A stretch of 31,493 nt of DNA. Source: a virus. Position numbers and translations under genes: made by a program. Where the stretch lies: the IMG/VR virus record IMGVR_UViG_3300047408_000092, positions 1-31,493 of that record; one strand, written 5' to 3'. The notes below the pieces were generated by a model that saw only the letters and a list, made by a program, of their open reading frames with translations, did not search any database and had not been told where the DNA came from. Below are positions 2,503-28,994 of the stretch, piece by piece (position 1 is the stretch's first letter; each line of letters opens with the position of its first letter).

Positions 2503-2646
2503 CTACTCGCGTCGCCCGCGGATGTGATCATCCAACCACGCCGAACTGACGAACTTGCCGCGATCGTCCCGGGGCGTGCGGGTGCGCCAGGCCCAGACGA
2601 CGACGGCCACCCCGCCAGCGAGGAAGAGCCCGACGACGATCCTCAT
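2503..2646 (-). CDS. Small single-span membrane protein, 47 aa
   Basis: A short gene whose ATG overlaps the stop of the cytosine methyltransferase as ATGA. Residues 3 to 20 (IVVGLFLAGGVAVVVWAW) form one transmembrane helix, followed by a basic RTRTPR stretch and a soluble tail ending DDHIRGRRE. By the positive-inside rule the C-terminus should be cytoplasmic. No function is known. The overlap, intact frame and clear membrane helix make it likely to be real. Confidence 0.7.
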   Translation of the reverse strand: MRIVVGLFLAGGVAVVVWAWRTRTPRDDRGKFVSSAWLDDHIRGRRE

Positions 2647-3812
2647 CCGCGCGGACTCGTCTCGTGTGCCGTTGGGCGGTCAGGTACCGCATCGCATGGC
2701 GGTGTGCTGTTAGGCGTCGTTGAGAGACTCATGTACGCCTCGATGAAGACTTGCGCGACTTGCGGTTTGATGGCGTTACCGTAGCCGCGCAGGCGTCCCA
2801 CGCGGTTGGATACCCCATGAGCCAACGGGAATGTGCCGGGTTCAACTGGCCGCGCTTTGCCGTCAGCGCATGGGAGCCAGTCGCAATGAGCCCAGAAACT
2901 TGACGCGGCACGGTGTCGTTCCGTTCCTTCCCGTCGCGACGTGTCATCGATCCAGATAGGTCGCCCGTGTCCTTGTGGTCCCGCGCAGTTGGGCTCGCCC
3001 AACTGGTCAACGTCACCTGATCGCGTAAATTGATCTGGTGTCCTTCCCGCATAGCCGGATCGCACCAGCCTCCGCTCCCCTCTTCGATGTTCGGCGTTCG
3101 CCAGCTCGCTAACTGCGCTGCTCCCGGTAGTTTGTGAAACTTCACCCGCGTTCCGTCCGGTTTCTTCGGCCCGTAGCAGTAATCGCTCCCAAGTTCGTCG
3201 TTGACCATCGGTGTCGGCCACGAAGATTTCGGCTGATACGCCAGATTCGGTTGCCCGCCATCCTTCCGTTCCGGATGATGTTTGCACGCGCCCCGAATAT
3301 CCGAGTGATTCGGACTCTGCCACGAACCACAATCGTTGCCGGATGTCGAACGCGCCGACGCACGGACCAGGGAGACCACACGCCCCGACGGCGTAGTCTT
3401 CCGCTTCCAGGTCATCGCAAAGACGATCGAGCCAGCCATGTCCAAGCGCTGCTTCAACCTGTTCCCCAAAGACGACGCCAGGGCGGCACTCTTTGACGAG
3501 CTGGAACCAGACAGGCCAAAGGTCGCGCGGATCGTGCCCGCCAGCTTGGGCGCCGGCACTCGAGAACGGCTGGCAGGGACAGGAGCCGGTCCAGACGGGT
3601 CGAGCATCGTCCCAGCCAGCGAGTCGGAGGGCGTAGCTCCAGCCGCCGATGCCGGCGAAGAAGTGGCACTGGGTAAATCCTCGAACATCGTCGGCTGTGA
3701 CTTCCACAATGCTCCGTTCATCGACGTCGCCATCCGCGATCAGTCCGGCCGTGATCAACTCGCGCAGCCACGCCGCCGCGAACGGATCGATCTCGTTGTA
3801 GTAGGCGGCCAT
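2643..3812 (-). CDS. DNA (cytosine-5) methyltransferase
   Basis: A 389-residue Dcm-type enzyme that would transfer a methyl group from SAM to cytosine C5. Visible motifs: motif I FFAGIGGWSYALRLAG (about 51-66); motif IV GSCPCQPFS with nucleophile Cys80; motif VI as GEQVE (117-119 EQV instead of the usual ENV, a variant common in phage enzymes); motif VIII DIRQRLWFVA (156-165); motif X GYGNAIKPQVAQVF (343-356). The middle (190-310) is a variable target-recognition region with LANAEHRRGERR and LGEPN-type segments. Likely roles are evasion of host restriction or regulation. Local base composition is less GC-rich than its neighbours, suggesting transfer. A second long frame lies inside it. Confidence 0.93.
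   Translation of the reverse strand: MAAYYNEIDPFAAAWLRELITAGLIADGDVDERSIVEVTADDVRGFTQCHFFAGIGGWSYALRLAGWDDARPVWTGSCPCQPFSSAGAQAGGHDPRDLWPVWFQLVKECRPGVVFGEQVEAALGHGWLDRLCDDLEAEDYAVGACGLPGPCVGAFDIRQRLWFVAESESLGYSGRVQTSSGTEGWRATESGVSAEIFVADTDGQRRTWERLLLRAEETGRNAGEVSQTTGSSAVSELANAEHRRGERRLVRSGYAGRTPDQFTRSGDVDQLGEPNCAGPQGHGRPIWIDDTSRREGTERHRAASSFWAHCDWLPCADGKARPVEPGTFPLAHGVSNRVGRLRGYGNAIKPQVAQVFIEAYMSLSTTPNSTPPCDAVPDRPTAHETSPRG
2729..3733 (-). CDS. Overlapping-frame protein, phage LNPAHSRWLMGYP family
   Basis: A 334-codon frame on the same strand, entirely inside the cytosine methyltransferase gene in another phase. It is not a featureless shadow. It resembles a phage protein family I recall from annotated phage genomes, often labelled as methyltransferase or hypothetical. 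Shared features are a Ser/Pro/Ala-rich start (MFEDLPSATSSPAS at codon 16), FAMTWKRKTTPSGR near 109, repeated SW-x-TP/SP-xxxD blocks (SWPTPMVNDE, SWASPTARDHKD), and the C-terminal LNPAHSRWLMGYPTAWDAC. No Shine-Dalgarno stands out for 3733 or 3688. Long open alternate frames arise easily in GC-rich DNA, so translation is uncertain, but the family likeness is specific. Function unknown; a partner of the methyltransferase is a guess. Confidence 0.5.
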   Translation of the reverse strand: MATSMNGALWKSQPTMFEDLPSATSSPASAAGATPSDSLAGTMLDPSGPAPVPASRSRVPAPKLAGTIRATFGLSGSSSSKSAALASSLGNRLKQRLDMAGSIVFAMTWKRKTTPSGRVVSLVRASARSTSGNDCGSWQSPNHSDIRGACKHHPERKDGGQPNLAYQPKSSWPTPMVNDELGSDYCYGPKKPDGTRVKFHKLPGAAQLASWRTPNIEEGSGGWCDPAMREGHQINLRDQVTLTSWASPTARDHKDTGDLSGSMTRRDGKERNDTVPRQVSGLIATGSHALTAKRGQLNPAHSRWLMGYPTAWDACAATVTPSNRKSRKSSSRRT

Positions 3813-5201: not shown

Positions 5202-5307
5202 GCGTCTGGTCGACCAGGCGGCGCGTCGCCGGGGTGAGCTGCCGGAGCAGCGTGAGCTCGTCAGTCTCGCGCTTCGTGAGCGGACGCGTCGCGTGCGCCA
5301 GAGCCAT
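5101..5307 (-). CDS. Small antisense ORF overlapping the repressor end
   Basis: A 68-codon frame starting at 5307 with an AAAGGT Shine-Dalgarno-like sequence ten bases upstream. The first 41 residues look protein-like (LTKRETDELTLLRQLTPATRRLVDQTL), but the last 27, antisense to the repressor gene, are low-complexity Arg/Gly. It might be a real small protein whose 3' end overlaps the repressor, or chance. No function proposed. Confidence 0.35.
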   Translation of the reverse strand: MALAHATRPLTKRETDELTLLRQLTPATRRLVDQTLTAFAAGDGVERTSAARGSRGRGPRRARPGRRR

Positions 5308-5559
5308 CGCGGGAGCTACCTTTCGTCAACCGAGGGGATCCCAACGAAGCCACACCTTACGCCCGTCGTCTGTAGACTTTCAACTGTAATCGATCTTACC
5401 GAACAGGTATATCCTCACGGCCTACACCGCCCGGCGGCTTTTGTCAATGCTATACACATCTCGCATAGGGAGTTACTTCTTTGCGATACTCCCCACCGGG
5501 CCACAGGCCCCGCGCGCGGCGCGCCGGCGCGAGACCGCAGACCGTCGAGCACAATATTT
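5308..5559. promoter_or_regulatory. Upstream region of the integrase
   Basis: About 250 bases without a supported gene, AT-richer than the surroundings in 5370-5490. It holds TATACACAT at 5451-5459, identical over nine bases to part of the early operator (4758-4766), and a 6-bp inverted repeat GGGAGT/ACTCCC (5468-5473 and 5488-5493). These could be repressor or integrase binding sites controlling the integrase. I could not define a convincing -35/-10 pair. The stretch just before the integrase ATG (5510-5540) is very GC-rich. Confidence 0.4.
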
Positions 5560-6828
5560 ATGAAGAAAACACGCATCGCGACCGGCATCTACCAGGACGC
5601 CCACGGCTACGAGGTGCGGGCCAGTCTCGGCTCGAAGCGCACCGAGCTGCTCGAGACCACCGAACGCTTCCCGCCCTCGGCGACGCGCGAAGAGATGATC
5701 CTCTGGCGCGACAGCGAGAAGCTCAAGCTCCGGAAGGCTCGCGGCGCCGGCGTCACGCGCGGCACCGTGCGCGCCAAGATCGTCACGTACTTGGCGACCG
5801 CCAAGCTCTCCGACGACAACCGCACCCAGCGGATCCGGTTCTTCGAGTGGTGGTGCGGCGCGGCCGGCCTCGGCGACGTGCCGTGGCACACGCTCGACGC
5901 GCCGCGGCTGCGGCGGGCGCTCAACACCCTGATCGCCGCCGGCTACGCGGCGTCGACGGTGAACAAGTGCCGCGACGCCCTCGCCCACGTCTACACTGTG
6001 CTCGACGGCGAGAACGCGCCGAACCCGTTCCGCGAGATCGATCGCGAGATCGAACCCGAGGCCGAACCGCGCGGCGTCGACTACGCGATCGTCGACACGA
6101 TCCTGTACTTCCTCCGGGTGAAGTGGCGGCGCTCGGCGAAGGGCCAGCCGAGCCGTCTCCTGCCCGAGAAGCGCCCCCTGCCGAGCCTGGGCGCCATCCG
6201 GCTGCGCGTGCTGGCGTACGCGCCCCTCACGCCGGCGCAGTTGAAACTCGTCCAGCCGAAGGATCTCCACCTGGACGACACGCCGCCCAACCTCCTCGTC
6301 CGCGGACGGAAGAAAGGTAAGCCTGGCGCCGTCGGGTTCAAACGCAAGCCCCTGCTCCCCCTGGCCGTCGAGGCGTTCCGCGACTTCGTCGCCGCGGACG
6401 CCTTCGGGCCGTTCACCCGGGGCTCGCTGCGCAAGACGTTCATCCGCGCGCGCGACCTGGCGCAGGCCGAGCTCCGCAAGGTCAATCCAAACGTCGACCT
6501 GTCGGACATGGTGCCCTACGATCTGCGGCACTCGTTCGGCTCGCTGATCTTTCAACTGACCGGCAGCGACGCGGTCACCGGCGAGCTGCTCGACCACAAG
6601 AACCCGGTCACCACGAAACGCTATCGACTCGCGGCCGTGCCGGCGCATCTCCAAGCCGCGACCGACGCCGCCGCGGCGTTCCTCGCCGCGCGCGCCACCC
6701 CGCCACTACCAGACACGACTACCAGACACTTTCAGAAAACGACTGAAAACCAGACGAAATTGTTAAGGAAATCGCAGTATACGAAACTGCATAATCGGGG
6801 GCGATCCGGCCTCCAGATCGCGAAATAA
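5560..6828 (+). CDS. int: Tyrosine-recombinase integrase (variant box I)
   Basis: A 422-residue phage integrase that would recombine attP with a tRNA-Val attB. The start at 5560 (MKKTRIATG) follows no clear Shine-Dalgarno; upstream in-frame sequence is not protein-like. An N-terminal AT-hook/arm-binding and SAM-like region (1-165) is followed by the catalytic domain. Box II reads PYDLRHSFGS (Arg323), then LLDHKNP (His346) and nucleophile Tyr355 in TTKRY. A Lys-containing GRKKGKPG strand is at 249-256. In box I, where GLR normally places the first catalytic Arg, the sequence is YAPLTPAQL with Thr224. The last 40 residues are polar, and their codons contain two arm-type attP repeats. The gene ends 50 bases before the attP core. 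Confidence 0.92.
   Translation: MKKTRIATGIYQDAHGYEVRASLGSKRTELLETTERFPPSATREEMILWRDSEKLKLRKARGAGVTRGTVRAKIVTYLATAKLSDDNRTQRIRFFEWWCGAAGLGDVPWHTLDAPRLRRALNTLIAAGYAASTVNKCRDALAHVYTVLDGENAPNPFREIDREIEPEAEPRGVDYAIVDTILYFLRVKWRRSAKGQPSRLLPEKRPLPSLGAIRLRVLAYAPLTPAQLKLVQPKDLHLDDTPPNLLVRGRKKGKPGAVGFKRKPLLPLAVEAFRDFVAADAFGPFTRGSLRKTFIRARDLAQAELRKVNPNVDLSDMVPYDLRHSFGSLIFQLTGSDAVTGELLDHKNPVTTKRYRLAAVPAHLQAATDAAAAFLAARATPPLPDTTTRHFQKTTENQTKLLRKSQYTKLHNRGRSGLQIAK
6706..6730 (+). repeat. attP arm-type repeat pair, left
   Basis: Two copies of CTACCAGACAC(G/T) start at 6706 and 6719, 13 bases apart. The same pair with the same spacing recurs at 6934-6958, so the two pairs flank the tRNA-like core. Symmetric direct repeats outside a core are what arm-type integrase sites look like. 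This pair lies in the integrase coding sequence, about codons 383 to 391. Confidence 0.65.
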
Positions 6829-6878: not shown

Positions 6879-6923
6879 TTCACACGCACGAGGTCGCAGG
6901 TTCAACTCCTGCAGCGCCCACCA
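6879..6923 (+). other. attP: attP core: 3' end of a tRNA-Val(CAC) gene
   Basis: The sequence matches the second half of a tRNA: anticodon loop TTCACAC (6879-6885, anticodon CAC, valine), variable loop AGGTC, T arm GCAGG-TTCAACT-CCTGC (6896-6912), acceptor strand AGCGCCC, discriminator A and encoded CCA (6921-6923). No matching D arm or 5' acceptor strand (GGGCGCT) lies upstream, and the anticodon stem is imperfect (one mismatch), so it is not a functional tRNA gene. A phage that integrates in a tRNA gene carries such a 3' end to restore it. It sits between integrase and the end of the late operon, the expected attP position. Confidence 0.82.
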
Positions 6924-6933
6924 CTTACAGGCG

Positions 6934-12046: not shown

Positions 12047-14296
12047 TTAGGCGGCCAGCAGCCGCCGCAACAGATCCGGCAACGAGAACCGCACGCTCGA
12101 CGCCATGACGGTGAACTTCGGCGCCACAGAGGGGACGACGTCGATCTCCGAGATCGTCACGTCCTGGATCACCAGATCGATCGGCCCGATGGCCGGCGAG
12201 GCGAGATTGATGTGCACGGTCTTGCCGATCTGGGTTTTCACGTCCCGCGTCGCATACGTGACGCTGACGATCGGCGACGCAAACCGCGCCAGCGTGGCAT
12301 CACACAGCGCGATCAGACTGGCTTCGTTCCGGCGTTCGTCCACGAGGGGCGGGCCTTCGTAGATCCCGTCGGCGGGTGTGCGGCCGTTCGCGGTGTCGAT
12401 CGCGGCCTGCACGGCCTGGGCGGCCGCATCGTCGCGCTGCACCCAGAGGTTGACCGGGGCGCCCTGGACGAGCGGCACGGCGATGGACCCCACACCGCTC
12501 GGGGGCACGCCGGTCAGCGTGCCATAGAAGGGGGACGTATTCGTCGCGAGCAGACTCACGGGCGTCGCGGTATAGCCGACCGCGACGATCACCCCAAGAC
12601 TGGGGGCCCACGCGAGCGCCCGCCAGGTGCCCGCGGCCGGCGGCGTATAGATCGTCCACATGATGCCATCGACTGACACCCCGATCCCGGCCGTGCCGAT
12701 GGCGACGAAGTAGCCGACGTCGGCCCAGACCGCCCCGTACCAGGACCCGGCCGGCAGCGCGCTCGCGTGGGTCGTCCAGGTCGTCCCGTTCGTGGAGGTC
12801 ATCACGCCGGTACTGCCGACCGCCACCGCCACGCCCAGCGTGGGCGACCACGCGAGATTCCAGGCCACATCCGATGTGGTCCGCAAGGTCCAGGTCACCC
12901 CGGTCGGCGAGGTCATGATCGCGCCGGTGCCGAGCGTATTCGAGGAGCAGGCGATGAACAGCCCCAACGCGGGCGCCCAGAGGACGCGTTCCCACGCCTG
13001 GACGGCGGCGGCCGTTTGCGACACCCAAGTGATCCCATCGGACGAGCGCATCACCCGCGCCCCGGCCCCACTATCCGCCACGGCCACGAAGACGGCTTGC
13101 GCGGGCGACCAGGCAATGCCGCTCCACCCACTCGCGACCGACGCCGTGCGTGACGTCCACACGACGCCGTCCGGCGAACTCATCACCTGCCCCCCGATCG
13201 ACACGGCCACAAACAGCGTCAACGCGGGCGACCACGCGACGTCTTCCCATTGGACGTTGGCCGCGGGCGTGCGATGCGTCCAGGTCACCCCATCGGGCGA
13301 TGTCATCACGCCATTGGGCGAACTGCTCGCCGACACCGCGACGAAGATCCCCAACTCGGGCGACCACGCGACGCCGGCCCATTGTTCCGCCGCGTGCGCG
13401 CTCGCTTGGGCCTGCCAGGTCGCCGGGTTTTTCGTGTACCCCCAGCCAATGCCGGTGTACGTCAAGATCTGCGTGTCGCTGATGACTTTCCCGCCGGCCG
13501 GATTGAACCAGGCCGCCGCGTTCGCCACCGGGATCACCGTCGCCCCCGCCGCCACCGCCGCGAGCGTGGGTTCCCCGTGCCCCTTGCCGAACACGCGGGT
13601 GAGGAGCTGACTGACATCGCGCGTCATCGTGATCGGCGGGTCGTTCAGGAAGGGATGCGTACTATCGATCGGATCTGGCGCGCTGCTCGTGTCGGTCTGA
13701 AACAGGGACACGGTTAAGTCGTCGATGTGCCAGTACCCGCCGATCAGCGTGGCGAGCTGCTGCAGCGCGCCGCTGATCCCTTCGCTCCCGTCCAGGTTGA
13801 CCGAGACGGTCGGCAAGCCGGCCACGATCCCCGCCGTCGAGTAATCCGGCAGACAGGCCGCGACCAGGGCGAGCGCGATCGTCGTCGCGCTGGTCGTCGT
13901 CCACGTCCCGAAGGGCCGCCGCCGGTTGGCGCGCGCGGTGTCGTCGATCGCCGTGCACGGATACGCGACCTGCGCCGGGCGCCCCTCGTAGGTCTCGTCC
14001 ACGGTCTGCAGCGCGCCGGCAAACAGCAGGCGCGGCGTCTGCCGATTGATCGTGACGCGGAGCCGCTGCTCCGCCACCGGCGCCGTCCCGTCCATCGTGA
14101 GGCTGCAGGTACTCGGACTGTCGCCGAGCGCGTGGTGGATCGTGAAGCCCTCGAGGCGCACGCGCGTCCGCACCTCGACGCCGGCGAGCAGGATCGACAC
14201 CTGGGTCGCCCGTTCCGCCACCAGCACGGCCGAGAGGTAGCCGATCCGGAAGTTCGCCAGCCTGGCGGTGCCGAGGACCGCCGGTTGCAGCGGCAT
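12047..14296 (-). CDS. Tail hub / baseplate protein with inserted beta-propeller
   Basis: A 749-residue protein following the tape measure. Residues 1-283 and 590-749 look like a siphophage tail hub: beta-rich, with TMDG, DETYEGRPAQV, LDERRNE-type segments and a conserved end MASSVRFSLPDLLRR. Between them (about 287-590) are seven repeats of roughly 40-45 residues, consensus W-x-x-VAWSP-x-LG-x-FVAV, then VMTSPDGVTWT-x-RT, with Asp-box-like SPDGVTW turns at 333, 374 and 417 and degenerate forms near 463, 501 and 541. N-terminal ATWQAQASA supplies the strand missing from the last repeat, as in propeller closure. The hub should plug the tail tip; the propeller may bind surface glycans. Start overlaps the tape-measure stop (TGATG). 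Confidence 0.85.
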   Translation of the reverse strand: MPLQPAVLGTARLANFRIGYLSAVLVAERATQVSILLAGVEVRTRVRLEGFTIHHALGDSPSTCSLTMDGTAPVAEQRLRVTINRQTPRLLFAGALQTVDETYEGRPAQVAYPCTAIDDTARANRRRPFGTWTTTSATTIALALVAACLPDYSTAGIVAGLPTVSVNLDGSEGISGALQQLATLIGGYWHIDDLTVSLFQTDTSSAPDPIDSTHPFLNDPPITMTRDVSQLLTRVFGKGHGEPTLAAVAAGATVIPVANAAAWFNPAGGKVISDTQILTYTGIGWGYTKNPATWQAQASAHAAEQWAGVAWSPELGIFVAVSASSSPNGVMTSPDGVTWTHRTPAANVQWEDVAWSPALTLFVAVSIGGQVMSSPDGVVWTSRTASVASGWSGIAWSPAQAVFVAVADSGAGARVMRSSDGITWVSQTAAAVQAWERVLWAPALGLFIACSSNTLGTGAIMTSPTGVTWTLRTTSDVAWNLAWSPTLGVAVAVGSTGVMTSTNGTTWTTHASALPAGSWYGAVWADVGYFVAIGTAGIGVSVDGIMWTIYTPPAAGTWRALAWAPSLGVIVAVGYTATPVSLLATNTSPFYGTLTGVPPSGVGSIAVPLVQGAPVNLWVQRDDAAAQAVQAAIDTANGRTPADGIYEGPPLVDERRNEASLIALCDATLARFASPIVSVTYATRDVKTQIGKTVHINLASPAIGPIDLVIQDVTISEIDVVPSVAPKFTVMASSVRFSLPDLLRRLLAA

Positions 14297-18672: not shown

Positions 18673-19034
18673 TAGGCCACCACCTCACTGACCAGCACGA
18701 CCGTCTCCACGCCCGCGCCTTCGGTATCCTCGACGTCGAGCACGTTGGCCGTGTGCACCTCACCCGATCGGTCCGTCCAGACGAGCCGCGTCTGCGTCGT
18801 GATCCCCGGGTGGTAGCGCCCCGAGAGGATGTACGACGCATGCGCGGTAATCGTCGCCGCGAAGTGGCGCTCACTGGCCCGCACACTGGCCGCTTCGATC
18901 GCCGCCCGCCACGTCGGGGGATCGAGCGGCGCGTAGGTCTGCGTATAGCCGCCATCGCCGTCGGCCACCGGCGCGCCCGGGCCGGACAGCGTCACCACCT
19001 GGCGCAGCGATCCGATGTCGATCGTTACGGCCAT
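18672..19034 (-). CDS. Head-tail adaptor / head closure protein
   Basis: A 120-residue protein with IDIGSLRQVVTLSGPG at the start and a middle segment TWRAAIEAASVRASERHFAA, then a beta part ending TVVLVSEVV. This is the pattern of SPP1 gp16-like head-tail adaptors, which close the portal vertex after packaging. It overlaps the connector gene upstream by 10 bases. Confidence 0.78.
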   Translation of the reverse strand: MAVTIDIGSLRQVVTLSGPGAPVADGDGGYTQTYAPLDPPTWRAAIEAASVRASERHFAATITAHASYILSGRYHPGITTQTRLVWTDRSGEVHTANVLDVEDTEGAGVETVVLVSEVVA

Positions 19035-19729
19035 ACCACCCCCGGATCGGGGAGGGCCTGGGTGCGCAGCACCTGGGACGAGAGCGCGGTGTACTTGAAC
19101 CCGTCGAGCAGGGCCTGCACGCCGTACGGCAGCTCGAGCACCTGGCCGCGCCGCGCCTCATGCACCGCCGCCCGGAACGTGTCGAAGTGGCCGACGAGGT
19201 AGCAGAGGATCTGCCGCACGAGCGGCGGGATCGCGGCCGCCGTGTCGCCGTACCCGCAGGTGTAGCGGATCCGGACCGCCCCGGTTTCCAGCCGCGCGAT
19301 CGGCCAGCTGCCCCCGGCGATCGGTTCCACGCTGCCGCGCGTCGCATAGGGCCCGGCCGGCGCCGACGCGTGGACGAGCGCCGGCGAGCCGCCGAGGGTC
19401 TGCACGACGCCGTCCCCGTCGACATACGCGACGGACACGACGTGCTGGAGCGGCGGGTGCGGCAGCTCGATCCGGGCCGCGATCCCGCTCGCGCCCAGAA
19501 ACGGAAAGGCGTCGAGCCACAGTTCGCGCGTCGCGGTCAGGAGCTGCCGGCCGCTCTGCCCTTCGAAGTAGGTCGCCGCCGCGTCGATGTAGACCCGCAG
19601 CAGCGCGTCGTCGGCATCGCCCAGCGCCCGGATGTGGAGCTTGACGTACGCCAGGTCGAGCGCCTGGACCTCCGGCGAGCCGCCCGCGACGGTGCTGATG
19701 AGCGAGTCGGTGCGCGTCAGCTCGGTCAT
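19025..19729 (-). CDS. Head-tail connector protein (gp6-like)
   Basis: A 234-residue protein. The start is fixed at 19729 by an ATGA overlap. The N-terminal helices have the connector pattern (DLAYVKLHIRALGDADDALL, then RVYIDAAATYFEGQSGRQLL), followed by a beta section with LDAFPFLGASG and a helical end containing the TCGYGDTAAAIPPLVRQILC segment. HK97 gp6-like connectors form the ring below the portal. It follows the glycosyltransferase block, so that block splits the head genes from the joining genes. Confidence 0.82.
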   Translation of the reverse strand: MTELTRTDSLISTVAGGSPEVQALDLAYVKLHIRALGDADDALLRVYIDAAATYFEGQSGRQLLTATRELWLDAFPFLGASGIAARIELPHPPLQHVVSVAYVDGDGVVQTLGGSPALVHASAPAGPYATRGSVEPIAGGSWPIARLETGAVRIRYTCGYGDTAAAIPPLVRQILCYLVGHFDTFRAAVHEARRGQVLELPYGVQALLDGFKYTALSSQVLRTQALPDPGVVWP

Positions 19730-20337
19730 CCGCGCGCCTCCCGCAGCTGGACATCCCGCCCGACACCCGGCGCGCAGCGGTACGTCACGGTCTCGGACCA
19801 GACGAGCGCCCCCGGCGGATAGAGCTCGAGCGTCGACATGATGAAGTCGTAGTCCGCCTCGTAGGCGCGGGAGTAGGTCCCGAGGCGCGCCGGATCGTTC
19901 GGCGTCACGAACTGCGCGCCGCCGAAGTCCCCGCGCCGGTAGACGCCCAGGCGCCGCCAGAGCGTCTCGCCCCACGGCGCGATCATGCGGAAGAGATGCG
20001 GCCGGTCGGGCGCGGCCGCGATCTGCGCCCGCATCGCGGCGACGGCCCCCGGCAAATACTCGTCATCGTCATCCAGGAACGCGAGGTGCGTGCTGACGGC
20101 GTGCGCCATCCCGAAGGCCCGCTCGGTGTAGCCGTCGTCCCCCGCCGGCGGATGCGGCACGAACCGCGCCCCGGCGGCGAGGGCGACCGGCGCCGCCTCG
20201 TACGCCCCCACCACCACGATCTCGTCGCCCGGATCGAGCGGCTGGGTATCGAGCGACTGCAGCGCGCGCGCCAGGGACGGCCGGGCGAGCGTGGGCACGA
20301 TGAACGAGAACGTCGGCGCCTGGGTCGGGGCCATCAT
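19726..20337 (-). CDS. Family 2-type glycosyltransferase
   Basis: A 203-residue GT-A protein. The N-terminal FSFIVPTLARPSLARALQSL and GDEIVVVG strands form the nucleotide-sugar fold, and LAFLDDDDEYLPGAV (about 86-100) holds the metal-binding DxD. It is short, catalytic domain only, with no membrane segment. One of five adjacent sugar-transfer genes read with virion genes, overlapping both neighbours by ATGA. Acceptor unknown; virion protein, host surface polysaccharide and DNA are all possible. Confidence 0.85.
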   Translation of the reverse strand: MMAPTQAPTFSFIVPTLARPSLARALQSLDTQPLDPGDEIVVVGAYEAAPVALAAGARFVPHPPAGDDGYTERAFGMAHAVSTHLAFLDDDDEYLPGAVAAMRAQIAAAPDRPHLFRMIAPWGETLWRRLGVYRRGDFGGAQFVTPNDPARLGTYSRAYEADYDFIMSTLELYPPGALVWSETVTYRCAPGVGRDVQLREARG

Positions 20338-20945
20338 GCGAGGGCCTCGACGAGCTGCGGGTAGGCCTCGAGCTTGAAGATGAAGCTCGGCGTGTCGAGA
20401 TGCGCCCAGCGGACCCCGCGCTCCATCAGGCTCGCGATCAGCCGCCAGTCCCAGGCATGCTCGCGAAACGGGATCGCGTCGCCGAGGACCGATCGCCGGA
20501 ACAGCGGCTGGCCGAGATCGATGCCGGCGCCGATCGGCGGGCAGTACCGGAGCTCCTTGCGCCCGGCGTACTGACACGAGCTGTAGACGAACCCGAGCTC
20601 CGGATCGGCGTCGAGCGCCGCGACGAGCGGCCCGAAGTGATCCGGGAGGTACGCGTTGTCGTCCGAGAGGAAGCAGACCAAGTCGCCGGCGGCCGCGCGC
20701 AGCCCCGCCTCGGCCGGGCCGATGCCCCAGTTGTTCGTCCGCGCCGGGAGGTTGATGTAGCGGGTCACGCGCGGCGCGGCGGTGACGAGGCCGGCAATCG
20801 CGGCGACCACCGGCGCCGGCGGGGCGTCGGAGACGACAATCTGCTCGAGGTCCTCGTACGCGAGGTGCTCCACGGATCGCAGGCAGCGAGCGAGACAGGC
20901 GACCCGATCGTACACCGTCGTCACGATGGTGACCCGCGGCGTCAT
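20334..20945 (-). CDS. Family 2-type glycosyltransferase
   Basis: Also 203 residues and GT-A: RVTIVTTVYDRVACLARCLR starts the fold, LEQIVVSDA gives the second strand, NNWGIGPAEAGLRAAAG is the segment typical of family 2 enzymes, and CFLSDDNAYLP (about 91-101) is the DxD-like metal site. Its equal length to the preceding gene product hints at tandem duplication followed by divergence, but the two are only weakly alike. Soluble and cytoplasmic. Confidence 0.85.
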   Translation of the reverse strand: MTPRVTIVTTVYDRVACLARCLRSVEHLAYEDLEQIVVSDAPPAPVVAAIAGLVTAAPRVTRYINLPARTNNWGIGPAEAGLRAAAGDLVCFLSDDNAYLPDHFGPLVAALDADPELGFVYSSCQYAGRKELRYCPPIGAGIDLGQPLFRRSVLGDAIPFREHAWDWRLIASLMERGVRWAHLDTPSFIFKLEAYPQLVEALA

Positions 20946-21904
20946 GCGGACACCGCCGATCCGATCGTCGTCAGGACCGTCTGCAGGCGCGCCGCGTAGG
21001 TGTGGGCCCGCAACCGCGCCGCGCACCGCTGGCGGATGTCGTCCTCGTCGAGGGGATGCGCGAACAGGTACCGCACCAGGTCGACGCATTCGTCCGCGAA
21101 GCGGAAGGTCGGCAACTCCGGCACGACCTCGTCGATCTCCGGCCGCCACTCGCTGACGACGAGCGCCCCGCAGGCCGTCGCCTCGTAGACGCGCGGGTTC
21201 ATCGCCGTTGCCGCGGTGCCGCGCGCGTTGAAGTGATGCACCTGGCGGAAGATGTTCACCACGATCCGCGTCTGCTGGTAGAGCGCCGCCGTCGCGCCCG
21301 GGTTGATGTTGCGGGCGAGGCAGAGGGCGTTGACGCCGGGATCGGCCCACGCCCCGCCGACGACATAGCTCAGGAGCCCCGCCTGCGCCAGCGCGCCCAG
21401 GACGCGATCGCGCGTCGGGTTGCCGCCGCCGATGAACCCGACGGCGCGGGTCCGCGGGTCGCCCAGGTCGACCAGCTCGGCGTCCCGCAGCACGAGCGGT
21501 CGGTGCACGTGCGGGTCGTAGCAGACCGGCAGCGACGCGGATCGCGGATGCCGGTCGAGGGTGGCCGGATCGTTGACGAAGACGTGGTCGAAGCGTGGCG
21601 AGAAGGTCGCCGTGTCGTCGACCTCGTACGGCTCATCGAGCAGCCAGACCGCCGTCTGCGGGACGCAGAACCCCGCGATGTTGGGGAACCGCGCGCAGAA
21701 CTTCCGGCCGTGGACCACGAACAGGAGGTCGGGCGCGAACGCGGCGATCTGGACCTGCAGATCCGGCGCGTCCCAGCCGGCGTGCGCGTATGGGACGCCG
21801 AGGTCCGCGGCCGCGTGCGCGAGCCCCTGGGTGAACACGTCCCCGCACGAGAGGAACTGATAGTCCACGCCGAACACGCGCGGCTTAGAGAACGACGGCG
21901 TCAT
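20942..21904 (-). CDS. CgeB-like GT-B glycosyltransferase
   Basis: A 320-residue protein with a GT-B layout: an N-terminal domain (FGVDYQFLSCGDVFTQGL, then DLLFVVHGRKF) and a C-terminal domain with RAVGFIGGGNPTRDRVLG and the donor-site segment MNPRVYEATACGALVVSEWR. This C-terminal pattern is shared by the CgeB/Glycos_transf_1_2 group. It would transfer a sugar from a nucleotide donor to an unknown acceptor. It overlaps the upstream gene by 20 bases. Confidence 0.82.
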   Translation of the reverse strand: MTPSFSKPRVFGVDYQFLSCGDVFTQGLAHAAADLGVPYAHAGWDAPDLQVQIAAFAPDLLFVVHGRKFCARFPNIAGFCVPQTAVWLLDEPYEVDDTATFSPRFDHVFVNDPATLDRHPRSASLPVCYDPHVHRPLVLRDAELVDLGDPRTRAVGFIGGGNPTRDRVLGALAQAGLLSYVVGGAWADPGVNALCLARNINPGATAALYQQTRIVVNIFRQVHHFNARGTAATAMNPRVYEATACGALVVSEWRPEIDEVVPELPTFRFADECVDLVRYLFAHPLDEDDIRQRCAARLRAHTYAARLQTVLTTIGSAVSA

Positions 21905-22631
21905 GCCGATGGGCCTCCAGTTCCTTCGCGACGTCGCCGCGGGTCTTCGTAAAGTGGTGGTAGCCGAGGTTCGCGCGCCGGTTCGCCGCGCTCATCCGTT
22001 CCTGCCGATCGCGGACCCGTCGCGTCACCGCGAACGCGGGATCCGCGTTCTGCCAGTGCACCCCGTCGAAGTGATGGGTCGCGCAGAGCGGCGGCCGCCC
22101 GAGGATCCCGTGGTTGCCGACGTCGAACATCAGCCCACGGTTCGCCCGAATCACGATCGGCTTCTCGTTGCCCTCGGCCCGGATGCCGTGCCGCCGCTGC
22201 CACACGATCGGCACCTGGGTGACGTCGAGGTCGGCGTCGGTCTCATGCCGAAAGACGTCCAACCGGTACGCGCGCAGCGCCAGACAGCCATCCGGCACCG
22301 ACGCCAAATACGCGGCCGCGGTCGCCCCGCTCGGCGAGTCGGGCGGATAGATGAATTCGTCGGCGTCGAGGACCAGGTGCCAGGCGTGCGTCGGGTCCGG
22401 CACGCGGATCGCGTCGTTGAGCCAGCCCACCTTGATCACGTCGTCGAGGCCGTCCGGGCTGATGACGTCCTGGATCGTCACGCGCGGATCGGCGGCGAGC
22501 AGCGCCCGCGTGTCGTCGGTGCAGCGATCGACGATCGCATGGATCGCGTCGACGTAGCCGGCGTGGTAGTGCGCCAGGAAGAACGGCACGAGCGCCGCTT
22601 CGTTGTAGAAGCAGCAGAAGGCTTTGATCAT
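21885..22631 (-). CDS. GT-A glycosyltransferase (family 2/92-like)
   Basis: A 248-residue protein starting MIKAFCCFYNEAALVPFFLA, the start pattern of the Glyco_tranf_2_4/family 92 group, with IHAIVDRCTDDTRALL and HLVLDADEFIYPP where DAD (89-91) is the metal site. The C-terminal half has several His and Trp residues and YHHFTKTRGDVAKELE. Likely a cytoplasmic transferase with unknown acceptor. Its ATG overlaps the stop of the DNA methyltransferase as ATGA. Confidence 0.82.
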   Translation of the reverse strand: MIKAFCCFYNEAALVPFFLAHYHAGYVDAIHAIVDRCTDDTRALLAADPRVTIQDVISPDGLDDVIKVGWLNDAIRVPDPTHAWHLVLDADEFIYPPDSPSGATAAAYLASVPDGCLALRAYRLDVFRHETDADLDVTQVPIVWQRRHGIRAEGNEKPIVIRANRGLMFDVGNHGILGRPPLCATHHFDGVHWQNADPAFAVTRRVRDRQERMSAANRRANLGYHHFTKTRGDVAKELEAHRHDAVVL

Positions 22632-23320
22632 GCCGAGACCTCCAGCGGGAGGACTTCTTGACTGAGGCGCTTCGCTGCGATCTCGCAGTACTTTTCTTCA
22701 CGCTCGATGCCGACACACTGACGCCCGAGGCGCTTGGCCGCGACCAGTGTGGTCCCGCTGCCCATAAATGGATCGAGGATCGTTTTCACATCCTGCGGGG
22801 CTTGCATGAGTGCCCACCGCATCACTGGTTCAGGCTTTTGGGTCGGATGCCAACGCTCTTCTTTTGGACATCCGGGCTCGGTCAACATCCCGTGCCAGCG
22901 GTAGGTCAGGCGACGCACCGGCTTGTCGAAATTCGTCCACACCAGTTCACAGTCTGCGTAGTCGTTGCTGCCGTTTTCTTTGTCCCAGACAAGCCAGCAG
23001 CGCGTGATCGGAAGGTCGTAGTAGTTCCCGCCGAATATCGCGTGCCACTTCGACAGCCGACGTGCCACGGCAATAGCCTCTGTAGCTGGCCTGTGGTCCC
23101 ACGCTTTGACGTTGCCGTAGTCCTTACTCGGCGCGAGAGCCTTGCCGCCTTGCCTATTCGCGCGCCCCTGCTGGCCTCGCTCAGCGCCGATGCCGTACGG
23201 CGGATCGGTCAACAACAGATCGAACGGCGTCAGCCCGAAATGCACGTCAAAGTCATCGAGCACGGTCAACGCCGACCCGTGGTAGATCGTGATCCCCGCG
23301 TGCTCGTAGTACGGCGTCAC
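22628..23320 (-). CDS. DNA N6-adenine / N4-cytosine methyltransferase
   Basis: A 230-residue enzyme beginning at a GTG that overlaps the upstream stop as GTGA. Catalytic motif IV is TDPPYG (about 38-43), and the SAM-binding motif I is ILDPFMGSGTTLVAA near the C-terminus (181-195), with HPTQKPEPVM before it, the motif order of beta-class enzymes. It would methylate adenine N6 or cytosine N4 at an unknown site. Less GC-rich than its neighbours, it looks like a later acquisition inside the glycosyltransferase block. Protection against restriction is the simplest role. Confidence 0.9.
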   Translation of the reverse strand: MTPYYEHAGITIYHGSALTVLDDFDVHFGLTPFDLLLTDPPYGIGAERGQQGRANRQGGKALAPSKDYGNVKAWDHRPATEAIAVARRLSKWHAIFGGNYYDLPITRCWLVWDKENGSNDYADCELVWTNFDKPVRRLTYRWHGMLTEPGCPKEERWHPTQKPEPVMRWALMQAPQDVKTILDPFMGSGTTLVAAKRLGRQCVGIEREEKYCEIAAKRLSQEVLPLEVSA

Positions 23321-23943
23321 GCCGCCACCGTCAGGCGCGCGAGCTCGTCCGCGAGCGGCGCGCACGGGAAGGTGGTCAGCACGGTGCGGCGCGAGCAGTT
23401 GATGACCGTCACGCCGGCCGCGGCGAGCGGCTCGACGAGCGACGGCCAGGCGGCCAGCCACTGCGGATACTCGTACGGCGACGGCGTCTGATCCGGGTGC
23501 GGGGCATGCCAGTGTTGCCGGCCGTCCGGCGTCGGGCTCATGTCGAACCCGAGCAGGAGAATGCGCGCCGCGCCGAGATGGACGGCGAGGTTCACGGCCT
23601 GGTAGCCGGAATTCCGACCCGTCCGCAGCCCGGTCGGCTCGCGCTCGAGGCCGAGCGGGCCGGTGTTGCGCAGCACCTGGACGTCGGGATACTTCGTCTC
23701 CTCCATCGGCGCGATCGCGTACTTCAGGCCGGCGAACGCCGGCGCCCCGTGCGCCCAGGTCCACCACTTCTGATCGGCCGCGTACAGGACCGCGGCCCAC
23801 GGCGCGAGCTGCCACGCGTTGTTGATGGCGATCGCCGGGCAGCGGCCGCCGTAACAGGCATCGACGTCGGCGACCGTGAGGCTCGGCCCGCCGCCAAACA
23901 GCACCATCGTCGCGCCAGGGAACAACCGGGGCACCGTCGGCAT
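23317..23943 (-). CDS. DUF115/MptE-like glycosyltransferase-related protein
   Basis: A 208-residue protein with the phage pattern FGGGPSLT near the start, PAIAINNAWQLAPWAAVLYA, ADQKWWTWAH, GRNSGYQAVNLAVHLGA and RILLLGFDM. This resembles the DUF115 / 6-hydroxymethylpterin pyrophosphokinase MptE-like group, relatives of sialyl- and motility-associated glycosyltransferases. It heads the sugar-transfer block, directly after two small genes that follow the portal. Biochemical activity cannot be decided from sequence alone. Confidence 0.75.
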   Translation of the reverse strand: MPTVPRLFPGATMVLFGGGPSLTVADVDACYGGRCPAIAINNAWQLAPWAAVLYAADQKWWTWAHGAPAFAGLKYAIAPMEETKYPDVQVLRNTGPLGLEREPTGLRTGRNSGYQAVNLAVHLGAARILLLGFDMSPTPDGRQHWHAPHPDQTPSPYEYPQWLAAWPSLVEPLAAAGVTVINCSRRTVLTTFPCAPLADELARLTVAA

Positions 23944-24080
23944 CACCCCACCAGCAGCGAGAGGAACCCGCACGCCAGCGCCGCGGCGACGAGGTTGTAG
24001 CGGCCGCTCGGGACGCCGAGCGTCGCCAGGAGCGCGCAGACGAACGCCGCGACGATCAGGATGAGATGCAGATTCGCCAT
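23943..24080 (-). CDS. Small two-span membrane protein, 45 aa
   Basis: A short gene fitted exactly between its neighbours with TGATG overlaps at both ends. It encodes two hydrophobic helices (LHLILIVAAFVCALLATLG, about 4-22, and LVAAALACGFLSLLVG, about 30-45) separated by a short polar turn (VPSGRYN), so a hairpin in the membrane is expected. Similar tiny hydrophobic proteins are common in phage structural operons; function unknown. Confidence 0.7.
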   Translation of the reverse strand: MANLHLILIVAAFVCALLATLGVPSGRYNLVAAALACGFLSLLVG

Positions 24081-24559
24081 CAGCGGTAGTCCTTTCCCGG
24101 ATCGCCGCGGTCGCCCTTCGGCCCCGGCGCGCCGTCCTTGCCCGCCTTCCCTTCGCGCCCTTCACGGCCAGCCTTGACGGCGAGCTGCCAGGCCGTCGCG
24201 CCGTCGCCAGGCTTCGCGTCGGTGGTCTCTCGCGCGATCCAGAGGGAGCCGCCAAACGTCACCGCCTCGCCGGCGGCGTAGGTCGTCCCGGCGATATAGA
24301 CCCCGCGGTACGTGAAGCTCTGCCCGTCCCGGCCGTCGACGCCGTCCATGCCCTTCTCGCCCCGCTCCCCGCGTTCCCCGGGCGCCCCGGGCGCCCCTGG
24401 CGCACCGTCACGCCCCGGCACCCCGGGCAGGCCGTCGCGTCCCGCCGGCCCCGGCACCGCGGCCTGCGCCTCGAGCGCCGCGACCCGCGCCAGGATCGGC
24501 GCCGTCGCCGCTCGCACGGCCGCCACCACGACATCGGCGATCGTCTCGGTGTCGGTCAT
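24080..24559 (-). CDS. Collagen-like protein with carbohydrate-binding-like domain
   Basis: A 159-residue protein: an N-terminal helix (1-33) that may trimerise, about fourteen Gly-X-Y triplets (36-79, for example GPAGRDGLPGVPGRDGAPG), a globular part (80-128, with YRGVYIAGTTYAAGEAVTFG and GSLWIA) resembling small chitin/carbohydrate-binding modules, and a second Gly-X-Y stretch (130-156). Collagen-like segments with such a domain are known from phage fibres and head decorations. It lies between the portal and the glycosyltransferase block, so it is a reasonable acceptor for the sugars, though this is only inference. Confidence 0.82.
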   Translation of the reverse strand: MTDTETIADVVVAAVRAATAPILARVAALEAQAAVPGPAGRDGLPGVPGRDGAPGAPGAPGERGERGEKGMDGVDGRDGQSFTYRGVYIAGTTYAAGEAVTFGGSLWIARETTDAKPGDGATAWQLAVKAGREGREGKAGKDGAPGPKGDRGDPGKDYR

Positions 24560-25947
24560 GCGGCGACCTCGAGGCCTTTCAAGACCGCCGCGAGGAGGGC
24601 CGCGCCGTCGATCGTTTTCGCGGCCGGCGGCAGCGCACCCATCACGGGCGCCGGTGCGGGCGGTGTCGGCTTGTTGTCACTGCCGAGCATCTCGAGCGGC
24701 CAGTTTTGCTGTTGGAGATAGACGCGATTACCGCCCGGCACCGACTTCAGGTTGAACTTGGCGCGGGCTTCGTCCGGTTTATAGACGCCGCCGATCACGC
24801 CCTTGGTCGCGACCTCCATCTGCTGCACCGAATCCATCCGCAGCAGACTCTCGATGTCGAACTCGACCTCGTAGCCGACGCCGCCGTCCGGCCGCTTCAC
24901 GGTCTCAAGCTCGAGCCCTTCGGTCAGGCAGAGCTCGAGCGATTCGATCAGCACCTGCAGGCACTGGCTGTAGTACTGCTGTGCCAGCGCCTCGACGTTG
25001 TTGTAGGACGGCAACGGCCCGACGCCGACCATGTACCCGGGCACATGAAAGACCGCCGCGATCTTCTCGTCGTCCCACTTCAACTGATCGATCAGCTGCG
25101 CATCGACGAACGACATCGCCGTCGGCTTCTCGAACTTTAGCCCGCCGCCGAGCACCGCGACCTTGCCGACGTTGTCCGCCCCGGTGTAATTCGCGGTCCA
25201 CCAGTCTTCGAGCTTTTTCGCTTCGTCGGGGCCGATGTTGCCCGGCGCGGTGAGAATCCCGCCGTTTTGCGCGCCGGCACGGAACAACTTCGTCGCGTTG
25301 TTCGTGATCGTCAGGGCTTGCATCGTCGCGTGGCCGCACGCGTACACCGGCGAGAGACCGCAGAGCGGGTGATACGGCGCGACCATGACGTCGTGGATGA
25401 TCTCGCGCGCCGGGACGAGGATCGACGCCGCGGTCACCCCAGCCAGGACGTCCTGCTGCAGCGCGTAGTACACGTCGCCGGTCGGCGTCACCATCGGCCG
25501 CACGCGCATCGGGTCGAGCAGGTAGAGCGCCGTGACGATGCCGCGGCTGTCCCGCTCCTTGAGCGCGAAGGCCGCGCCGCGCGTCAACTTCGAGAGGATC
25601 CAGTACTGATAGAACTGAATCCGGTTGGTGTAGTGGTTCGGGCGGACGAGCACCGGCGCGTATGGCGACGTGTGCAGGACTTCGGTGTCGATCCCATCGT
25701 CGGTTTCCGCGACGAGCATCGGGCGGATCTTGGCGATATCGCCGGCGATGAGCGTGACGCAGGCCCAGAACGTCGGATGCGTCAGCGCGTCTTCGACCGG
25801 GACGGTGATGCCCCGTTGCCACGCGCCGGCGAACGATTCACGAATCATCGGCCACCACGCCGACGGGGACGGCAGATGCGTGATGAGGTCGCCGCCGGCG
25901 GCCTTCGTGCGCGCCTCGATCGACCAGGACCCAAGCTGCAGTTTCAT
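24556..25947 (-). CDS. Portal protein (HK97 type)
   Basis: A 463-residue portal, which forms the dodecameric channel for DNA at the capsid vertex. Typical features: TFWACVTLIAGDIAKIRPML near residue 60, NRIQFYQYWILSKLTRGAAF, LYLLDPMRVRPMV, the FRAGAQNGGIL segment and FHVPGYMVGVG with YNNVEALAQQYYSQCL. The length is usual for the family. The gene follows the capsid gene instead of preceding it, which is uncommon. Start overlaps the 59-aa gene as ATGA. Confidence 0.92.
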   Translation of the reverse strand: MKLQLGSWSIEARTKAAGGDLITHLPSPSAWWPMIRESFAGAWQRGITVPVEDALTHPTFWACVTLIAGDIAKIRPMLVAETDDGIDTEVLHTSPYAPVLVRPNHYTNRIQFYQYWILSKLTRGAAFALKERDSRGIVTALYLLDPMRVRPMVTPTGDVYYALQQDVLAGVTAASILVPAREIIHDVMVAPYHPLCGLSPVYACGHATMQALTITNNATKLFRAGAQNGGILTAPGNIGPDEAKKLEDWWTANYTGADNVGKVAVLGGGLKFEKPTAMSFVDAQLIDQLKWDDEKIAAVFHVPGYMVGVGPLPSYNNVEALAQQYYSQCLQVLIESLELCLTEGLELETVKRPDGGVGYEVEFDIESLLRMDSVQQMEVATKGVIGGVYKPDEARAKFNLKSVPGGNRVYLQQQNWPLEMLGSDNKPTPPAPAPVMGALPPAAKTIDGAALLAAVLKGLEVAA

Positions 25948-28445: not shown

Positions 28446-28994
28446 TCACAGCCGCACCCACCAGATCGATCGGTGCTGCTGCACCTGCGGGAACAGCGCG
28501 TCGACCGCCTCGGTCACGCCCCAATGTTCGCGGATGTGATAGTCGTGGCCGCAGAGGATCCCGCCCGGCTTCACCAGCGGCCGATACGCCGCGAGGTTCT
28601 CGCGCACGGCCTCGACGCGATGATCGCCGTCCAGGAACACCAGATCCAGCGACGCCGGCGCGAACGTCGCCGCCGCGGCCGCCGCCTCCATCCACACGAT
28701 CACCACCCGGCCCTCCGGGATCCGGGCGCCCATATTGGCGACGAACGCCGCATAGAGCCCCGCCGGGCCGCCGAGCGCCTCGACCTCGGCCAGGTGCGGA
28801 TCGTCCGGCGTGCCGCACCAGTGGTCGACCGCGAAGACGCGGCCCGCCGTGTTGTCCGCCAGCGCCAAGGTCGACCGCCCCTGCCAGCAGCCGACCTCGA
28901 GGATCGTCGTCGCGTCGCGCGCCTGCATCGCGAGCCAGGCGAGCTCGTCGTCGTGCATCCAGCCCGGCGTGGCGCGCGCGGCGGTAAGGTTCAT
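28446..28994 (-). CDS. Class I SAM-dependent methyltransferase
   Basis: A 182-residue protein with a Methyltransf_24-like fold: motif I TILEVGCWQGRSTLAL (about 30-45), acidic VFAVDHWCG, then DLVFLDGDHRVEAV (116-129) and GGILCGHDYH. Related enzymes modify sugars or small molecules rather than DNA, fitting a role with the glycosyltransferases further along the operon. It lies unusually between terminase and capsid genes. The substrate is unknown. Confidence 0.82.
   Translation of the reverse strand: MNLTAARATPGWMHDDELAWLAMQARDATTILEVGCWQGRSTLALADNTAGRVFAVDHWCGTPDDPHLAEVEALGGPAGLYAAFVANMGARIPEGRVVIVWMEAAAAAATFAPASLDLVFLDGDHRVEAVRENLAAYRPLVKPGGILCGHDYHIREHWGVTEAVDALFPQVQQHRSIWWVRL

Follow-up and report, generated by a model that had tools for sequence, protein, structure and literature searches.

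A soil phage is represented in IMG/VR by a record (IMGVR_UViG_3300047408_000092) whose positions 1 to 31,493, the whole stretch of DNA analysed here and called the window, carry a late operon on the minus strand. This operon runs from terS and terL through a 77-aa ORF, a Methyltransf_24 gene, the protease/capsid gene and the portal gene to a gene for a collagen-like protein with a carbohydrate-binding module (CBM). It continues with a 45-aa peptide, a glycosyltransferase named D115, a DNA N6/N4-methyltransferase, a Glyco_tranf_2_4 enzyme, a CgeB-like GT-B enzyme, the GT2 enzymes GT2b and GT2a, and the connector. Five sugar-transferase genes and a methyltransferase gene thus separate portal from connector (19726-23943, 4.2 kb, minus strand) in one overlapping chain, as a preliminary description of this DNA had proposed. 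From portal to connector every gene overlaps its neighbour by 1 to 20 nt, mostly by 4; the 1-nt overlaps are those with the 45-aa ORF and were taken from the junction sequence. Gene order and overlaps place the glycosyltransferases in the same predicted operon as the virion genes, to which they are presumably coupled in translation.

The block is bordered upstream by the portal gene (24556..25947; Pfam Phage_portal, 2e-77; PHROG 2271) and downstream by a putative head-tail connector gene (19025..19729), identified by position and gene order. Directly behind the portal gene, the collagen-like protein (24080..24559) consists of an N-terminal region, two Gly-X-Y stretches (PF01391, 3e-13) and a CBM_5/12-like module for which the CBM_5_12 match is weak (0.004), in line with the carbohydrate-binding-like domain ascribed to it earlier. 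The following 45-aa peptide (23943..24080) is hydrophobic and of membrane type, and overlaps at both ends; in the related locus L005 the collagen and D115 genes abut without such a peptide between them. This peptide and a second methyltransferase of sugar O-methyltransferase type, encoded between terL and capsid (28446..28994; Methyltransf_24, Pfam 1.5e-17), are additions to the original gene list. Pfam matches agree with the assignment of two GT2 genes, GT2b (20334..20945; PF00535, 2e-14) and GT2a (19726..20337; PF00535, 1.2e-5), and of a CgeB-like GT-B gene (20942..21904; PF13524, 2e-18). They also identify the N-methyltransferase (22628..23320; PF01555 N6_N4_Mtase, 2e-22), with its DPPY motif, as a DNA enzyme. 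The GT-A gene (21885..22631), which had been labelled family 92, is better named Glyco_tranf_2_4 (PF13704, 4e-12).

D115 (23317..23943) had been called DUF115/MptE-like. The Pfam MptE-like match is sub-threshold (2e-4), and the protein matches PHROG 4603, annotated 'alpha-2,3-sialyltransferase', at 5e-45; the earlier name finds support in its predicted structure. An AlphaFold2 (AF2) model (pLDDT 94, built from 36 aligned sequences) ranks the Maf flagellin glycosyltransferase (5mu5) first in structural alignment (Z 15.7, rmsd 3.9, 189 residues), followed by CstI (Z 12.3), CstII (Z 11.9) and the archaeal HPPK, a group that spans Z scores of about 11 to 12, Foldseek E-values being weak. As modelled, D115 has the Maf/DUF115 catalytic core fold, which is also of the GT42 type found in CstI and CstII. 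However, D115 has only 208 aa and lacks the full-length architecture and flanking domains of Maf, its alignment covering residues 262-517 of the 632 in the Maf chain, and it is encoded near portal and not near flagellin. Likewise, it shares only 12-14% identity with CstI and CstII, and a sialic acid donor is only putative for D115. The model of the CgeB-like protein (AF2, pLDDT 87) shows a GT-B fold of the BshA/PimB'/SenB kind. When D115 and CgeB were searched against the PDB with sequence profiles, no relatives were returned, and these likenesses come from structure comparison alone.

A conserved slot with exchangeable cargo

The arrangement of the block is not due to chance, because many viral contigs have homologous blocks in the equivalent position. 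Loci of relatives were gathered in three ways, by D115, by portal alone and by CgeB, and their genes were labelled with profiles of the window proteins and of cargo families that recur; ORFs were taken from stop to stop and identified with these profiles, as longest-ORF calling gave wrong frames in GC-rich slots. Of the loci selected by portal, 44 extend 3 kb or more downstream, some of them near-identical; in these, collagen lies near portal in 42/44, D115 is present in 30/44, and D115 together with another glycosyltransferase in 28. In this set D115 co-occurs with other glycosyltransferases (28/30; Fisher p 3.5e-7) and with methyltransferases (20/30; p 3.4e-5). CgeB-selected viral contigs carry CgeB in the slot with one clear exception (L182, described below), and the D115-CgeB-GT2b core occupies it in nearly all of them. 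A connector homologue ends the slot in many relatives. Cargo representatives match GT2, GT9, GT-D, GT-B-like and SAM-methyltransferase families or glycosyltransferases in PHROG, and some resemble nothing known. The gap between portal (with collagen) and connector is thus a conserved slot in which glycosyltransferase and methyltransferase cargo is swapped among relatives.

A second lineage has an equivalent slot without collagen, in the order terL-portal-protease-capsid-D115-cargo-connector. Its cultured example is phage D3, whose orf7 carries a PHROG 4603-type annotation and is located between the major head protein and the head-tail adaptor. Homologues of the Glyco_tranf_2_4 enzyme stand at the equivalent place in five loci (L147, L148, L151, L162 and L163); a single-sequence scan of viral contigs with this enzyme gave no match, and neither did a comparison of CgeB with cultured phages. 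The Methyltransf_24 gene upstream of the capsid probably belongs to the sugar pathway, to judge from sequence relationships, because relatives carry its homologues within the slot and the domain is fused into some of the bacterial enzymes described below. Conversely, a foreign GC3 (0.745 vs 0.90-0.94 in neighbours) and absence from the closest relative, L002, where CgeB follows D115 at once, make it probable that the DNA methyltransferase gene was inserted recently and independently and has no part in the sugar pathway. As a separate observation, five loci (L019, L020, L164, L165 and L173) carry a diverged CgeB-like gene amid tail genes, close to gp10, tail completion and tail tube.

Fused bacterial homologues at eCIS loci

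The CgeB profile retrieved 27 loci from bacterial genomes, and in 24 of these a single long ORF, encoding a protein of ~1000 aa, includes CgeB. D115 precedes CgeB in these long ORFs (24 loci), although in the contig-edge fragment L195 no D115 part is seen. A strong GT2b-like C-terminus is present in 10/24 fusions, and the others examined end in Methyltransf_24, in a methyltransferase plus GT2, or in further glycosyltransferase or methyltransferase domains. All three core domains are homologous to phage D115, CgeB and GT2b, with roughly 50-57% identity for CgeB and GT2b and 51-57% between phage GT2b and the C-terminal domain. The bacterial enzyme is one polypeptide and has among its neighbours genes for an AAA ATPase and for eCIS_core, a marker of phage-tail-like extracellular injection systems (eCIS), whereas the phage proteins are encoded by separate overlapping genes. 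Bacterial CgeB domains form a single clade (support 0.977), and phage CgeB domains fall outside it in a clade of their own, in a tree built without distant outgroups, with which midpoint rooting was misleading.

Whole-genome searches found eCIS_core in 21/24 fusion genomes vs 0/14 control genomes, and sheath genes in 21/24 fusion genomes; the base rate of eCIS is 1.9% of genomes (PMC8213781). Read from coordinates, eCIS_core or sheath lies at most about 30 kb from the fusion in 19/24, in one genome (G006) by way of a gene fragment at the contig edge. Around the bacterial fusions, neither other genes of the window's structural operon nor a collagen-like ORF were found. Among the window and the viral loci, eCIS_core and AAA queries matched only in L182, an IMG/VR contig filed as virus, in which eCIS_core, an AAA ATPase and a D115-CgeB fusion indicate an eCIS locus and not a phage. 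The fused enzyme is not described in the passages retrieved from the eCIS literature searched, and the link of these enzymes to eCIS appears undescribed there.

Proposed function and competing readings

We consider it reasonably probable that the block, in its conserved cargo slot between the head genes and the neck genes, is a module for glycosylating virion proteins. This reading is the best supported, because nearly all relatives carry the block within the head/neck operon, a Maf-like fold is predicted for D115 and fused homologues exist at eCIS loci. Glycosylation of virion proteins, as first suggested, is therefore favoured, although not with the collagen-like protein as dedicated acceptor or the capsid as sole target. 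D115, the CgeB-like enzyme and GT2b would form the core, and GT2a, the Glyco_tranf_2_4 enzyme and Methyltransf_24, which vary among relatives, would extend or cap the glycan. Synthesised alongside the structural proteins, the enzymes would work in the cytoplasm while particles assemble. In a tentative order of steps, D115 or CgeB would attach the first sugar to Ser/Thr residues of at least one abundant particle protein, and the remaining enzymes would elongate the glycan. Among the scanned proteins none was recognised as an enzyme of donor-sugar synthesis, and the host would therefore have to supply the donors.

The acceptor may be a particle protein of a kind common to phage and eCIS, such as tail tube, baseplate or fibre. 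Particles of eCIS contain neither DNA nor head. If the kind of target is shared, it would thus be neither DNA nor the capsid alone, but a tail-type particle protein. In mycobacteriophages, capsid and tail tube are reported to be glycosylated (Freeman 2023, cited in PMC11256854 and PMC12619734), and phages Che8 and Rita encode glycosyltransferases whose targets, according to these citing papers, are virion proteins (Freeman et al., 2023). Maravista, a cluster F1 relative, has the genes close to the 3' end of its genome, whereas those of the window lie inside the head/neck operon, include a Maf-like enzyme and have an eCIS counterpart and only candidate acceptors. By analogy with mycobacteriophages, the tail tube is the best candidate, and its Ser/Thr content is higher in phages with the block (18.8%, n=17) than in those without (10.1%, n=5, all one clade), which is a lead only. 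Between block-bearing and block-free loci the capsid shows a weak difference in Ser/Thr, and portal, connector, hc1, gp10 and tail completion show no clear one.

Going further, it is conceivable, if somewhat less likely than the contrary, that siphophages and eCIS have one glycosylation machine in common, whose Maf-like, GT-B and GT2/methyltransferase activities are encoded by split genes in phages and a fused gene in bacteria, and which decorates a shared tail-type protein. If so, glycosylation of phage-derived particles would be no actinophage peculiarity but a modular trait found in many environmental phages as well as in phage-tail-like injection systems, slot and fusion would be a cheap genomic marker for glycosylated particles, and there would be a testable reason for the 'sialyltransferase' genes that many phages carry beside neck genes.

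Alternatively, the enzymes could alter the host surface (O-antigen or capsule) during infection or lysogeny, in a manner similar to seroconversion. Pathways of this kind often include GT2 and GT-B enzymes, and the phage is probably temperate, as a tRNA 3' end lies behind its recombinase-like ORF (5293-6828). However, the genes lie within the late structural operon in relatives and in no separate moron position, the block genes scanned include no flippase, polymerase or acyltransferase, and the bacterial homologues are mostly at eCIS loci, so that this reading is unlikely.

Glycosylated collagens are known in bacteria and mimivirus, and the adjoining collagen-like protein was a candidate for a dedicated glycan acceptor, its gene being adjacent, overlapping and in the same operon; moreover, most contigs of the CgeB lineage have collagen, D115 and CgeB side by side. 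The preliminary description had proposed to examine whether block and collagen gene co-occur and swap together, and across the relatives no mutual dependence emerges: 10/42 collagen-bearing portal-selected loci have no D115 or glycosyltransferase, and 40 D115 loci lack a collagen-like ORF, with 28/40 having other glycosyltransferases. Furthermore, an E. coli phage has a collagen/CBM gene (annotated 'portal protein B') immediately before its neck genes, the bacterial fusions have no collagen-like ORF nearby, and the collagen stretches contain about 3% Ser/Thr, equally with and without the block. Because collagen and block are separable, and the collagen stretch contains few Ser/Thr in either case, their association is one of shared position within a lineage and not of mutual dependence, and a dedicated role as acceptor is rather improbable. 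Independently of this, phage records list collagen/CBM proteins that adjoin portal under the name portal protein (L217, 3048-3677; L144, 8298-9719), and the 'portal' families PHROG 1289 and 2271 match the CBM module, which indicates mis-annotation or fusions.

The eCIS enzyme could also be a cargo toxin, and this is the main uncertainty of the best explanation. The fusion would then be an injected effector, and the phage genes, despite common ancestry, would have an unrelated role. The fusion adjoins eCIS_core proteins, in the region where toxins lie, and a toxin glycosyltransferase, Afp18, is a precedent (cited in PMC10598620). Against this, the scanned fusions contain no eCIS_core domain and phages retain the equivalent activities as separate conserved genes (CgeB mean column identity 64% over 32 sequences), and we regard the effector reading as quite improbable.

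Phage glycosyltransferases that target DNA are known, and a DNA N6/N4-methyltransferase lies inside the block; nevertheless, it is very improbable that the block acts jointly with this enzyme to hypermodify phage DNA and evade restriction, an alternative raised earlier, as the core's bacterial relatives are at loci of particles that package no DNA, the methyltransferase is of foreign composition and missing in the closest relative, and ten mostly early-region ORFs scanned gave Pfam matches to a C5 methylase and HTH domains only, with no base-modification enzyme that would provide a modified base as sugar acceptor.

Other features of the window

A sequence resembling the 3' end of a tRNA (T arm, acceptor and CCA; 6885-6925, plus strand) is located directly behind the presumed integrase ORF (5293-6828) and is probably an attachment site; ARAGORN reports no full tRNA at this position, and the presumed integrase ORF, searched from 5560, has no Pfam match. 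A C5 cytosine DNA methylase ORF (2643-3812, minus strand) shares its DNA with a 334-aa ORF in another frame (2729-3733, minus strand). Matches to the 334-aa ORF occur in 210 phage records and frequently bear the annotation cytosine methylase, and both frames may be coding. Finally, a tail-region protein (12047-14296, minus strand) contains several repeats, spaced by 123 or 132 nt and with a motif like 'SPDGVTWT', which are perhaps a propeller-like receptor-binding insertion.
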